Shown: piece by piece, positions 59,503 through 63,974 of the stretch | Numbering within the stretch: position 1 is the stretch's first letter | How the letters are laid out: every line of letters starts with the position of its first letter | NCBI RefSeq assembly: GCF_013391695.1 | Contig: NZ_JACBGH010000002.1 | Location: 186,001-250,000, forward strand | DNA: 64,000 nt | Source of the DNA: Thiomicrorhabdus cannonii | GTDB taxonomy: Bacteria; Pseudomonadota; Gammaproteobacteria; Thiomicrospirales; Thiomicrospiraceae | Direction: 5' to 3' | Program-made: the position numbers and the translations under genes | Notes under the pieces: model-generated | What the model was told of the DNA's origin: nothing | Seen by the model: the letters and a program-made list of their open reading frames with translations, nothing else | The model's database searches: none

Positions 59503-59535
59503 CTTAGCCTTGACTAATTTTTTTATTAGACTAAG
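59503..59535. promoter_or_regulatory. Nested palindromes, candidate DtxR/MntR-type operator
   Basis: TTAG-N6-CTAA (59504-59517) and TTAG-N-CTAA (59526-59534) are nested in an outer CTTAG...CTAAG palindrome (59503-59535). It lies 47 bp before the outer-membrane gene and about 147 bp before the ABC operon, in their shared upstream gap. TTAG/CTAA half sites recall DtxR-family operators. Confidence 0.5.
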
Positions 59536-59681
59536 CTATACCTTAAAAATTCGCAACATTAATTTGCGCTCAAAGCCGACATAAGAACCGGACATTAAGC
59601 ACCTTGCCATCCATACCATTTAAGAAACGGGCTGTTGCAAGATAGAGCGCAGGCAAACTTTTTCATTTAAGATAGATATTT

Positions 59682-60659
59682 ATGAAAACACTCAAGAACC
59701 CATTAAAATCAAACGCAATAAAATCCAAGATTATTCTGCAGTTTGCTGCCGCGGTTATGCTCAGTTTTTCCTGGGTGCAGAATGCCGCAGCGCAACTCAA
59801 CGTGACCGTCACCACCGGCATGATTGCCGATCTTACCGAGAATATCGGCGGTGAAAACGTCAAGGTGACCGCGCTGATGGGCAGCGGCGTCGACCCGCAT
59901 CTTTACAAAGCCACCCAAGGCGACCTGAGACGCCTCACCCAAGCCGATCTGGTGCTCTACAACGGCCTGCATCTGGAAGGCAAGATGCAGGAGATTTTTG
60001 ACAAACTTGCCCGCAAAAAACCGGTATTCGCTATCAGCGATCGCATTGCCGAAACACGTTTGCTTCGTCACGGCGCCGTTCACGACCCGCACATCTGGTT
60101 TGACGTGCAACTGTGGATTGAAGCCGGCAAACGCATTACCGAAATTCTGGCCGAACAAGACCCCGAACACGCCAAAGCCTACCAGCAGCGCGCTCAAAAC
60201 TACCTGAACAAACTGGCTGAACTGGACAGCTGGGTACAACAGCAAATCCAGCAGATTCCGCAACAAAAACGCATCCTCATCACCGCCCACGACGCTTTCG
60301 GTTATTTCGGCAAGGCCTATGGCCTGAACGTTATGGGACTGCAAGGCATCAGCACCGCGGCGGAGTTCGGCTTGCAGGACATCAAACAACTCAAGGACGT
60401 GATTGTCGCCAACCATATCAACGCCGTCTTCGTCGAATCGAGCGTCTCGCCGCGCTTTATTGAATCGCTGGTCAAAGGCGTGGCGGCGGAAGGTCATCAG
60501 CTGCATATCGGCGGAGAGCTATACTCCGACGCCATGGGGCTGGCCGACACGCCGGAAGGCACTTACATCGGCATGGTACGCCACAATGTCAGCACCATTG
60601 TCAGCGCCCTTATTCACAGCACGCTTAAGGATCAACAGACAGCGCAAGGAAACCCATGA
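59682..60659 (+). CDS. Metal ABC transporter substrate-binding protein, Mn/Fe type
   Basis: Periplasmic cluster A-I metal-binding protein, 325 residues with a signal peptide ending NAAAQ (about 38). Predicted ligands are H73, H137, E252 and D283, the His-His-Glu-Asp set of manganese/iron binders (MntC, SitA), and there is no His-rich loop as in ZnuA. Its stop overlaps the ATPase start by ATGA. Confidence 0.9.
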
Positions 60660-61453
60660 AAAACACGCCCCTCTCGCCCGCTCCGGTTGCGGTGCGCAAT
60701 CTGAATATGCGCTATCACCACAAGCCGGTGCTCACAGATGTCAGCTTTGAGATTCCGGCCGGCAAAACCGTCGCCATTGTCGGCCCGAATGGCGCCGGCA
60801 AATCCACCCTGCTCAAGGGGATGATGGGACTGCTGCCGCTGATGGAAGGCGAAGTGCGCTTCTTTGGCGAACCCTTAGCCCAGAAGCGCCTGGTCACCGC
60901 CTATGTGCCGCAGCGCGAAGAGGTGGATTGGGATTTTCCGATCGATGTCATGGATGTGGTACTCATGGGACGCCACGGCCAGCTGCGCCTTTGGCAAAGA
61001 CCCAGCCGCGAAGACATCGCCATTGCCGAACAGGCCCTCAAAGACCTCCATATGTGGGAGTTCCGCGACCGCCAGATCAGCCAACTTTCCGGCGGACAGC
61101 AGCAGCGCGTCTTTCTGGCGCGCGCCTTGGCGCAACAGGCCAGTCTCTACCTGATGGACGAGCCTTTTGCCGGCGTGGATGTCGCCACCGAAAAAGCCAT
61201 TATCGAACTGTTCAAACAGCTTAAGGCACAGGGCAAAACCATTGTCTGCGTGCACCACGACCTCAACACCGTCGGAGAATATTTCGACTGGATTCTGTTT
61301 GTCAACGCCCGTCTGGTGGCCGCCGGCCCGGTGAAAGAAGTTCTAACGCAGGAAAACCTGCACAAAACCTATGGCGGTCGCCTGTCGCTGTTGAACGAAC
61401 TGACCGAAGCCATGTACCGCAGCCGCCTGAACCAGGCTCACGAGCACGACTGA
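60656..61453 (+). CDS. Metal ABC transporter ATP-binding protein
   Basis: Cytosolic ATPase of the Mn/Fe transporter, 265 residues. Walker [10 protein letters not shown], signature LSGGQQQRV, Walker B YLMDEP and the switch His in CVHHDL. Overlaps the upstream gene by 4 bp and is 4 bp from the next. Confidence 0.95.
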
Positions 61454-61457
61454 AACC

Positions 61458-62807
61458 ATGCAGGACTTTACCTTACTCAACCAACCCGATGTCTGGGAAC
61501 TCTGGCTCAGCTTCTGGCGCTTCGAGGACATCAACGCCCTGTGGGTGCTGATGGGCAGCTTGCTGCTCGGCATGGGCGCGGCGGTGATCGGCAGCTTCGC
61601 TTTCCTGCGCAAACGCTCTTTGATCGGTGACGCTTTGGCGCACGCCGCCCTGCCCGGTGTGATGACCGCCTTTCTGCTGTTTCACAGCCGCGACCCATGG
61701 ATTATGTTCAGCGGCGCTCTGGCAAGCAGTTTTATCGGTTTTTTCATTATCGACTGGCTACCCAAACATACCAAAATCAAACCCGATGCTGCGCTGGCGA
61801 TCACCCTCTCCTTCTTTTTCGCCCTCGGCCTGATGCTACTCTCCTATATCCAGGGGTTGGAAGTGGAAAACAAAAGCGGGCTCGATAAAATCCTCTTCGG
61901 CCAGGCCGCCGCCATGACGCAGGACGACATCCGCCTGCTGGCTTATGTCACCGTCTTTATTCTGCTCGTCGTGACCCTGTTCTTCCATAAGTTCCGTCTG
62001 ATCGCCTTTAACCGCCTCTATGCGCAAAGCCTGGGCATCAATATCGCCTTCTACGAACTGGTATTGGCCTTGCTGATTGTGATGGCGGTCGTCGTCGGAC
62101 TGCAGCTGGTGGGCGTGGTCTTGATGGCCGCCGTGCTGCTCACCCCGATGGCGGCGGCGCGCCTGTGGAGCGACAACCTCAAAACCATCCTGTTGATTGC
62201 CGGCCTGCTTGGCGCTCTGAGCGCGCTCATCAGCACGCAAATCTCCTATCTGGCGCCCGCCATGCCGACCGGCCCGTGGATGGTCGTCAGCCTTGCGATC
62301 CTCTTTGTCGCGTCACTGCTCTTTGCGCCGCAAAAGGGGCTATTGCAACGCGCCTGGCAGCAACGCCGTTTGCGTCACAAGGTCGCCGAGGAAAACCTGT
62401 TGCGCACCCTCTATAAACTGTGCGAACGCGGCGATTTCCATACGCGCTCGTTCAGTCTTGCCGAGATTCAGGCACTGCGCGCCATGCCGGTCAGCCGCCT
62501 GCAGATTCATTTGCAGCGCCTTGCCAAAAACGGCCTGGTCAGCCACTGTCCGCAAGGCTGGTGTTTGACCGACGCCGGTTTTGAACAGGCCAGTCTGCTG
62601 ACGCGCCGCCACCGTCTGTGGGAGAGTTATCTGAACGAACGCGCCGACCTCACACCCGAACAGATTCATCTGCAGGCGGAACGCATCGAACACATCCTGA
62701 CCGATGAACAGAGCCGCCAGATCGAGGCGGAACTGAGTTCAACGCAAACCGACCCGCACGGCCAACCGATTCCGGCCGCCACCGCCAAATCCGGAGACGC
62801 GAGATGA
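61458..62807 (+). CDS. Metal ABC transporter permease fused to a DtxR/MntR-like regulator
   Basis: 449 residues in two parts. Residues 1-295 are an ABC-3 type permease with about eight membrane segments (RKRSLIGDALAHAALPG motif). Residues 300-449 are a complete DtxR-family repressor: a winged helix (about 311-378, FSLAEIQALRAMPVSRLQIHLQRLAKNGLV) and a metal-binding/dimer region with H385, E389, H404, E408, E411, H412. Glu at 408, where DtxR has Cys102, is the manganese (MntR) pattern. The tail TDPHGQPIP matches DtxR. This is the YtgC-YtgR architecture of Chlamydia. It overlaps the next gene by ATGA. Confidence 0.92.
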   Translation: MQDFTLLNQPDVWELWLSFWRFEDINALWVLMGSLLLGMGAAVIGSFAFLRKRSLIGDALAHAALPGVMTAFLLFHSRDPWIMFSGALASSFIGFFIIDWLPKHTKIKPDAALAITLSFFFALGLMLLSYIQGLEVENKSGLDKILFGQAAAMTQDDIRLLAYVTVFILLVVTLFFHKFRLIAFNRLYAQSLGINIAFYELVLALLIVMAVVVGLQLVGVVLMAAVLLTPMAAARLWSDNLKTILLIAGLLGALSALISTQISYLAPAMPTGPWMVVSLAILFVASLLFAPQKGLLQRAWQQRRLRHKVAEENLLRTLYKLCERGDFHTRSFSLAEIQALRAMPVSRLQIHLQRLAKNGLVSHCPQGWCLTDAGFEQASLLTRRHRLWESYLNERADLTPEQIHLQAERIEHILTDEQSRQIEAELSSTQTDPHGQPIPAATAKSGDAR

Positions 62808-63712
62808 CGACGTTTATTCAAGACCACCTCTCAGACCTTTGGATTCTGGCGACCGCCTCTTTGGTGGCCATCTCCTGCGCGCTGGTGGGCGTATTCCTGA
62901 TTCTGCGCCGCCAGTCGCTGATGGGCGACGCCATCAGCCACTCGGTACTGCTGGGCATCGTTCTGGCCTTTATGTTGAGCGGCACCCGCGATCTGCCGGT
63001 GCTATTGGGCGGAGCCGTCCTCATCGGTCTGGTCACCGCCTGGCTCAGCGACAGCCTTCACAAGGTCGGTAATCTGCAAAAAGATGCCGGCATCGGCATT
63101 GTCTTTACGCTGTTTTTTGCCATCGGCGTGATTCTGATCTCTCTCTATGCCGGACAGATCGACCTGGACCAGGAGTGCGTGCTCTATGGTGAAATCGCGT
63201 TTGTGCCTTTCGATACCATTATCTGGGGCGACATGGAAAACGGCATTGATTTGGGGCCTCGCGCCTTCTGGAGCATCGCCATTGTGTTCGCACTGGTGCT
63301 GGCCAGCATCTGGATCGCATTCGGACGCCTGCAAACCGTATCCTTCCACCCGAGCCTGGCCGCCTCATTGGGCATCAACGTTCTATTCTGGCACTACTTT
63401 CTGATGACCCTGGTGTCGCTGACCACGGTAGCGTCGTTCGACGCCGTCGGCGCGATTCTGGTGGTCGCCCTGCTGGTGATTCCGGCGGCCAGCGCCTATC
63501 TGCTCGCCAAATCGCTCAAAAATATGCTGTGGCTGGCGGCTCTCTATGCGGAGGTGGCGGTATTGACGGGGTACGCGCTGGCAGTCTGGCTGGACAGCTC
63601 GATCTCCGCCTCGATTGCGGTCTGTGCCGGCCTACTGCTGTTTTTGACGGTCGTGGGATTGCAAATCCATAAACTGCGCCTGCAAAAGCGGGCCGTCAAA
63701 ACGCTCGCATAA
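62804..63712 (+). CDS. Metal ABC transporter permease
   Basis: Second ABC-3 family permease, 302 residues and about eight hydrophobic segments. GDAISHSVLLGIVLAF and FDAVGAILVVALLVIPAASAYLL are family motifs. Last gene of the SBP-ATPase-permease/regulator-permease operon, an order matching ytgABCRD. Confidence 0.94.
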   Translation: MTTFIQDHLSDLWILATASLVAISCALVGVFLILRRQSLMGDAISHSVLLGIVLAFMLSGTRDLPVLLGGAVLIGLVTAWLSDSLHKVGNLQKDAGIGIVFTLFFAIGVILISLYAGQIDLDQECVLYGEIAFVPFDTIIWGDMENGIDLGPRAFWSIAIVFALVLASIWIAFGRLQTVSFHPSLAASLGINVLFWHYFLMTLVSLTTVASFDAVGAILVVALLVIPAASAYLLAKSLKNMLWLAALYAEVAVLTGYALAVWLDSSISASIAVCAGLLLFLTVVGLQIHKLRLQKRAVKTLA

Positions 63713-63760
63713 AAACCGAAATAAAACCCGGGAAACCGCATTTTATGATTGATTTATTGA

Positions 63761-63930
63761 ACCACTGAGTACACGAAGAGCACGAAGACTTTGAGCATTA
63801 ATCAGTTTTCGGTGTTATTTTTACGTCCGCGCTTTAAAGCAGTTTGAAAAACATTTCAAATCGATCAGATGCATTAAGAAGATATATCAAGTTCTTAGAA
63901 AAACTTCGTACTCTTCGTGTGCTTCGTGGT
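63761..63930. repeat. CACGAAG-type inverted repeat element, copy B
   Basis: Arms 63761-63787 and 63904-63930 are inverted repeats (23 of 27 match), built of CACGAAGNN-like units and related to copy A, with a 116-bp AT-rich centre without a gene. Confidence 0.85.
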
Positions 63931-63974
63931 TTTAAATCATCATCAACCTATCCATCACAAAATATTGAACCCGA

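Follow-up and report, generated by a model that had tools for sequence, protein, structure and literature searches.

A DtxR-type domain with fixed metal-ligand positions and an unconserved recognition helix on an ABC-3 permease of Thiomicrorhabdus cannonii

Introduction

What does a DtxR/MntR-type repressor domain do at the end of a metal transporter permease when the same genome already has a repressor of that type? The question is raised by a gene of Thiomicrorhabdus cannonii, a free-living sulfur bacterium, within a stretch of 64,000 nucleotides that we refer to as the window. In the literature we found, the permease-DtxR fusion that has been studied is chlamydial YtgCR, and the accepted view is that it yields a repressor by cleavage: cleaved YtgR has been observed, and YtgR binds to the ytg promoter and represses it (PMC5599777, PMC7755916). 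The isolated domain binds its promoter, and it has been proposed that this mode occurs widely (PMC5599777). Fusions of this kind are already known outside Chlamydia, and the present protein is one of them; according to the review PMC5599777, Thompson et al. 2012 found orthologous permease-repressor fusions, of the same architecture, in 11 phyla. In the passages of that review that deal with these fusions, neither co-occurrence with MntR nor a loss of recognition-helix conservation is mentioned. A preliminary description of the T. cannonii gene proposed that it extends the YtgR mode, with the C-terminal domain cut off the permease to repress its own operon, and we compared this proposal with other roles that the domain may have.

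Architecture of the Fused Protein and Its Operon

The fusion is a single uninterrupted open reading frame of 449 amino acids with an ATG start (61458..62807, plus strand, as are all parts of it given below). The ABC-3 permease part covers residues 28-289 (61539..62324; Pfam E 1.7e-61) and the metal-binding and dimerisation part, Fe_dep_repr_C (PF02742), covers residues 371-439 (62568..62774; E 1.9e-19, 69.9 bits against a cut-off of 27). Fe_dep_repress (PF01325), the DNA-binding model that had been expected alongside ABC-3, reached 14.5 bits on the isolated fused domain, below its cut-off of 26, so that the domain search bore out the permease and the metal-binding half of the expectation and not this part. 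In a sequence alignment to solved DtxR-family repressors, the isolated domain matched 8pvt over query residues 6-136 of 144 (E 2.1e-15). AlphaFold2 predicted a complete DtxR/MntR fold for residues 306-439 (pLDDT 84.3), with a winged helix (residues 306-370, 62373..62567) and a metal/dimer domain. In the model the last transmembrane helix (271-289) gives way to a single unbroken helix (295-324, 62340..62429) that leads from the membrane part into helix 1 of the winged helix; then come the recognition helix (345-357, 62490-62528), a two-stranded wing (361-370) and the helices of the metal domain. The same elements were obtained when the C-terminal part was modelled alone; the alignments behind these predictions (A3 and A4) were built from the window and related loci only. 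Foldseek placed the C-terminal part of the full-length predicted model on the Mn repressor DR2539 (8pvt/8pw0, TM 0.85) and on DtxR (1bi2, TM 0.88). Open reading frame, Pfam and predicted fold thus agree on a permease fused to a DtxR/MntR-type domain, as first described, and a chance fusion, frameshift or assembly error is ruled out by the presence of the fusion in 37 genomes of the family.

The gene is the third of four, in the order substrate-binding protein (59682..60659, plus strand; ZnuA/TroA type, PF01297, E 2.8e-82), ATPase (60656..61453, plus strand; PF00005, with two manganese/iron ATPases as best NCBIfam models, both below their cut-offs), fused permease, and a second ABC-3 permease of 302 amino acids that has no extra domain (62804..63712, plus strand). 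By Pfam this is a complete importer set of the Psa/Tro/Sit type, and T. cannonii resembles PsaBC, TroABCD and SitABCD in operon content as well as in the predicted permease fold (7kyp, TM 0.88). We know of no extra domain on the Psa and Sit permeases. In Treponema, TroR is encoded by a separate gene (PMC2628430). The gene order also matches chlamydial ytgABCRD, as the preliminary description had noted, and shared domain order and operon order are the first points in favour of an autorepressor, that is, a fused domain that would bind its own promoter when metal-loaded, either after proteolytic release or while still anchored in the membrane. Since the domain sits on one of two permeases, a DtxR-like dimer would need two transporters or some other partner. 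A metal riboswitch was considered and set aside, as Rfam at gathering scores found just two tRNAs in the window.

Distribution and Origin of the Fusion

A scan of genome contigs gave 50 loci, made up of Thiomicrorhabdus/Hydrogenovibrio relatives (59-96% identity), Bacteroidota and Balneolota that share the fused architecture at about 40% identity, and the two single loci L037 and L025. Among the 62 genomes of the family of the source genome, the fusion is present in 37 and a stand-alone MntR in 54; both proteins occur in 34 (source genome counted), the fusion alone in three and MntR alone in 20. Wider samples were searched with the best first-look candidates scored per genome. Calling the fusion by frame length only, we found it in at least seven of 369 Gammaproteobacteria, six of these seven with a separate match, and in at least 21 of 296 Bacteroidota (frames of 428 amino acids or more), of which at least 19 have a further DtxR match; among the matches listed for 398 Pseudomonadota, a fused-length frame was found only in the source genome.

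In a tree of the domains, a 100/99 branch separates the fused copies of Gammaproteobacteria and of Bacteroidota/Balneolota from all stand-alone MntRs, although the tree has few columns and long branches and its bootstrap had not settled. Since the fused copies share one side, a single old origin is possible, and separate fusions in each lineage were set aside. One Thiomicrospira relative (L037, 5986-7735) has the same operon with a first permease of 300 amino acids and no fused domain, and keeps a nearby MntR.

A Separate MntR and a Conserved Upstream Box

On the contig that carries the operon, at a distance of about 140 kb, the source genome encodes a separate MntR of 220 amino acids (G000:C2; L103:2599-3261), with the DNA-binding, metal and FeoA domains recognised by Pfam. 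Stand-alone copies are also found in 12 of 14 genomes with non-gammaproteobacterial loci. In seven family loci MntR lies directly 3′ of the second permease (L078, L082, L084, L088, L089, L091, L092), and in ten Balneolota loci it lies directly 5′ of the substrate-binding protein (L022, L023, L024, L028, L034, L035, L045, L048, L049, L052; in L049 the permease runs off the contig end and the fusion is not visible). Because these operons already encode a canonical repressor, a second one released from the permease is not obviously needed. Some fusion-bearing genomes gave no other MntR match, which an autorepressor would account for: G006, G021 and G038 in the family, and outside it G108 in the Gammaproteobacteria sample, G433 and G434, and G644 and G660 in the Bacteroidota sample. 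The assembly of G038 is 93% complete, and MntR may merely be missing there. In G021 (L098) the substrate-binding protein is split into two overlapping frames, the tail of the fused domain is altered and no MntR was found in the genome; this operon is possibly decaying.

At five Bacteroidota loci (L030, L032, L036, L040, L053) there are also small DtxR-like frames of 125-157 amino acids, divergent from the operon (about 3.6-4.1 kb, minus strand). They are a third DtxR-type protein at those loci; the one from L030, the sole one of the five run against Pfam, matched PF01325 clearly, with its metal domain below the cut-off.

Upstream of the T. cannonii operon we found a candidate MntR-type operator, TTAGCCTTGACTAA (59504..59517, no strand assigned), which is the only exact match to the near-palindrome TTAGYCWWGRCTAA in its own genome. 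A second, degenerate box, TTAGACTAAGCTAT, can be read 22 bp further on (59526..59539, likewise without strand), and a weaker second box stands at the same 22-bp spacing in five relatives (G049, G037, G031, G043, G034). We scored the box in 34 of the 37 fused loci, leaving out two with no substrate-binding protein gene on the contig (L087, L101) and one with too little upstream sequence (L102), against shuffles that preserve base composition only. At least 12 of 14 positions matched in 29 of the 31 loci that have both fusion and MntR, T. cannonii included; in the other two (G040, G042) the best match was 10-11 of 14, which is chance level. L037, which has the operon and MntR and lacks the fused domain, matched at all 14 positions. 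The three loci with the fusion alone reached 9-11 of 14 at best, the level of shuffles, an absence that rests on few cases since the pattern was derived from MntR-bearing loci and the three include the incomplete assembly G038 and the perhaps decaying G021. Balneolota extend the pattern: all ten loci whose operon begins with MntR have TTAGN6CTAA 5′ of it, where shuffling predicts 0.09, even though the fused recognition helices are quite different there.

The box also occurs at other metal genes. In fusion-free genomes, exact copies stand before Nramp genes, recognised by Pfam in L142 and by likeness in L143, and before mntR itself (L149). G021 has one exact copy elsewhere in its genome, upstream of an ArsP-type permease gene (L154). 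Among the 20 exact boxes inspected, nine precede Nramp (2), TonB-receptor (4), substrate-binding protein, outer-membrane or mntR genes; the remaining 11 are inside or near other genes or unclear, with no evident link to manganese uptake. The genes 3′ of exact boxes were assigned by Pfam for L142, L151, L154 and L161, by likeness judged by eye for L143, L145, L146, L155 and L159, and for L149 through blastp of the same gene (L054). Taken across loci, this pattern indicates that the box goes with stand-alone MntR and that the imported metal is most likely Mn(II). It also speaks against the fused domain as the repressor that reads the box, as do the separate MntRs in 34 of 37 genomes.

Three of the TonB-dependent receptors with a box upstream (L145, L146 and L161, in G052, G053 and G060), identified by Pfam for L161 and by likeness for the others, suggest manganese-regulated outer-membrane uptake. 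In the window, a divergent outer-membrane-type gene of the Phenol_MetA_deg family (PF13557; 58662-59480, minus strand) shares the intergenic region that holds the MntR-type box, and in G022 a protein of this family is encoded elsewhere (L151:1158-1940) with an exact box of its own. The PF13557-family protein may be an outer-membrane metal channel in the MntR regulon.

The Recognition Helix of the Fused Domain Is Not Conserved

The preliminary description had named a loss of recognition-helix residues in alignments as evidence that would tell against its proposal, and this is what the alignments gave. Across the 34 genomes that have both proteins, mean pairwise identity in the recognition helix (346-357) was 0.43 for the fused copies as opposed to 0.885 for the stand-alone MntRs, with 0.645 and 0.822 in the metal/dimer part. 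Site rates (LG+R4) gave the same picture, with residues 345-357 evolving at 2.18 times the rate of their own metal part in the fused domain and at 0.58 times in MntR. Over positions 344-357 the fused rates are above those of their own metal domain (p 6e-4) and the stand-alone rates below theirs (p 0.016), and an interaction permutation of sites put the contrast between the two at p 5e-5. By these relative rates the contrast is restricted to the recognition helix, as fused and stand-alone copies are about equal in the wing (2.54 and 2.75, respectively) and in helix 2 (1.09 and 1.31). In Balneolota (36 pairs) the recognition helix has an identity of 0.41 in fused and 0.77 in stand-alone copies, and the metal part 0.79 and 0.87; the corresponding helix values in Bacteroidota, from six pairs only, are 0.74 and 1.0.

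The fastest sites of the fusion include P344, V345, S346 and I350, with rates above 3, where the stand-alone counterparts S38, Q39, A40 and N44 have rates of 0.03-0.29. In an alignment to the B. subtilis MntR sequence, the four positions correspond to His35, Pro36, Ser37 and Lys41. Residues with these numbers lie at base edges in the cryo-EM structure of MntR (PMC11275975). Consistent with the rates, PF01325 at E 0.001 matched none of 28 fused sequences and all 46 stand-alone ones, while PF02742 matched 28/28 and 46/46. The pN/pS ratios follow the same direction: in recognition helix plus wing pN/pS was 0.40 for fused and 0.15 for stand-alone copies, and in the metal domain 0.13 and 0.09, values from 59 overlapping pairs in which pS (0.64-0.80) is near saturation, so that only the contrast counts.

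In the fused domain the recognition helix has kept a positive net charge, on average +2.2 compared with +1.1 in MntR. Given this charge and a pN/pS of 0.40 and not 1, some binding of nucleic acid or of something else may remain, and judged from the alignments constraint on the helix is relaxed, not gone. The basic helix and the complete predicted winged-helix fold fit an autorepressor, though an unconserved helix and the missing PF01325 matches do not. They might also fit a domain that binds a lineage-specific operator elsewhere and shares its metal control with MntR. Such a domain would keep the amphipathic helix pattern and positive charge that we see, its wing is no more relaxed than that of MntR relative to the metal domain, and a regulator with a single target could co-evolve fast with its site. 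Against this stands that PF01325 is not recognisable in the fused domain and that no lineage-specific site was identified in a search that covered the upstream box only, and we regard divergent specificity as very unlikely.

The Metal Ligands Are Fixed

The metal site is a different matter. Among the fused sequences of Gammaproteobacteria and Bacteroidota/Balneolota, 66 are distinct, and H385, E389, H404, E408, E411 and H412 are identical in every one of them (39 in a smaller alignment); the six residues include the four ligands H385, E408, E411 and H412 that were named at the outset at the right positions. In a HMMER alignment the six correspond to H79, E83, H98, C102, E105 and H106 of DtxR. 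To call the set MntR-type holds for the four named residues and not for the whole, since the equivalents of Asp8 and Glu11 are replaced: Asn313, at the position of MntR Asp8, is invariant in 66/66, and the Glu11 position holds Arg316 here and R or K in 66/66. The invariance of Asn313 holds in A1, A3 and one further alignment and is not seen in A2 and A4, which cover the C-terminal part only, probably owing to ragged starts there. Because Asn stands in for the Asp8 ligand, the metal affinity of the fused domain is uncertain. Compared with the stand-alone repressors DR2539, ScaR, SloR and B. subtilis MntR, the fused domain thus has the winged helix, the metal/dimer fold and six ligands that align, but it differs in being attached to a membrane protein, in its unconserved recognition helix, in Asn313 at Asp8 and in having no FeoA/SH3 domain.

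The domain could instead be a structural relic that senses no metal and now only helps the permease heterodimer to assemble or to stay stable. The continuous helix 295-324 of the AlphaFold2 model would serve as a rigid extension, and the L037 permease exists without the domain. Ligand positions that are the same in 66/66 fused sequences are not easily explained by packing, however, and a purely structural role seems quite unlikely to us.

Is the Domain Released from the Permease?

We found no cleavage feature at the junction: the linker (290-305) is variable, with a mean rate of 1.37 compared with 0.55 for the permease and no conserved cleavage motif, and the AlphaFold2 model passes from the last transmembrane helix into a single continuous helix. 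Release through an internal translation start is not favoured either, as the places of in-frame ATG, GTG or TTG codons around the junction differ across 37 loci. A Shine-Dalgarno-like word precedes such a start in two of the 37, G030 and the source gene itself; in the latter the codon is a TTG that falls within helix 1, at residue 315, which could be held in favour of a released domain in T. cannonii.

The proposal that the fusion extends the YtgR mode is therefore unsupported, with the recognition helix unconserved, a separate MntR in nearly all family genomes that have the fusion and the box conserved upstream, and the comparative evidence has weakened this reading. We consider an autorepressor unlikely, with the behaviour of chlamydial YtgR at its promoter (PMC5599777, PMC7755916) among the points that still speak for it. 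Set beside published descriptions of YtgCR, on which and not on a sequence alignment our comparison rests, the T. cannonii protein is alike in its ABC-3 permease with a C-terminal DtxR-type domain and in gene order, and unlike in that its sequence contains no WWW motif and that a canonical MntR is encoded separately in its genome, together with a conserved box whose occurrence tracks MntR.

A Putative Metal Sensor on the Transporter

The reading we prefer, and to which we give a probability of roughly one half, has MntR as the repressor of the operon and the fused domain as a sensor of cytosolic metal that acts on the transporter. The operon would encode a manganese-type ABC importer, which the separate canonical MntR would repress through the TTAG..CTAA box or boxes at 59504-59539. 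The fused domain would be an old, distinct subfamily that has kept its metal-binding and dimer residues and in which DNA-reading residues are not conserved. On the transporter it could bind Mn(II) or Fe(II) as a sensor of the cytosol, and it would lower import once the cytosol is replete with metal. For this last step we infer gating by analogy. The importers MetNI and ModABC carry C-terminal feedback domains, located on the ATPase (PMC10710835); the C2 domain of MetNI and ModC are similar in that a C-terminal cytoplasmic domain could control uptake by feedback through binding of the substrate that is transported, and different in that they are on the ATPase and of other folds, whereas here the domain is on the permease and its gating is only conjectured. 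A limited literature search found no permease-borne DtxR-type domain described as transport feedback.

A broader form of this reading is more tentative. A DtxR-type repressor domain may have become a brake that senses metal and acts on a manganese ABC permease, its recognition helix mostly unconstrained and its metal/dimer site fixed. In at least two phyla it would work alongside a separate MntR that controls the same operon, so that paralogous sensors would exert transcriptional and transport-level control. Many fusion-bearing bacteria already possess an MntR elsewhere in the genome, or often in the operon itself, and in their fused copies the DNA-reading residues are not conserved. If the sensor reading is true, a manganese importer would be under feedback control by a former transcription factor located on its permease, and it would be worth asking whether YtgR is the exception.

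Beyond the 3′ end of the operon, at 63760-63931, there is an inverted repeat rich in CACGAAG, with arms of 33 nt that are 82% complementary and 106 nt apart.
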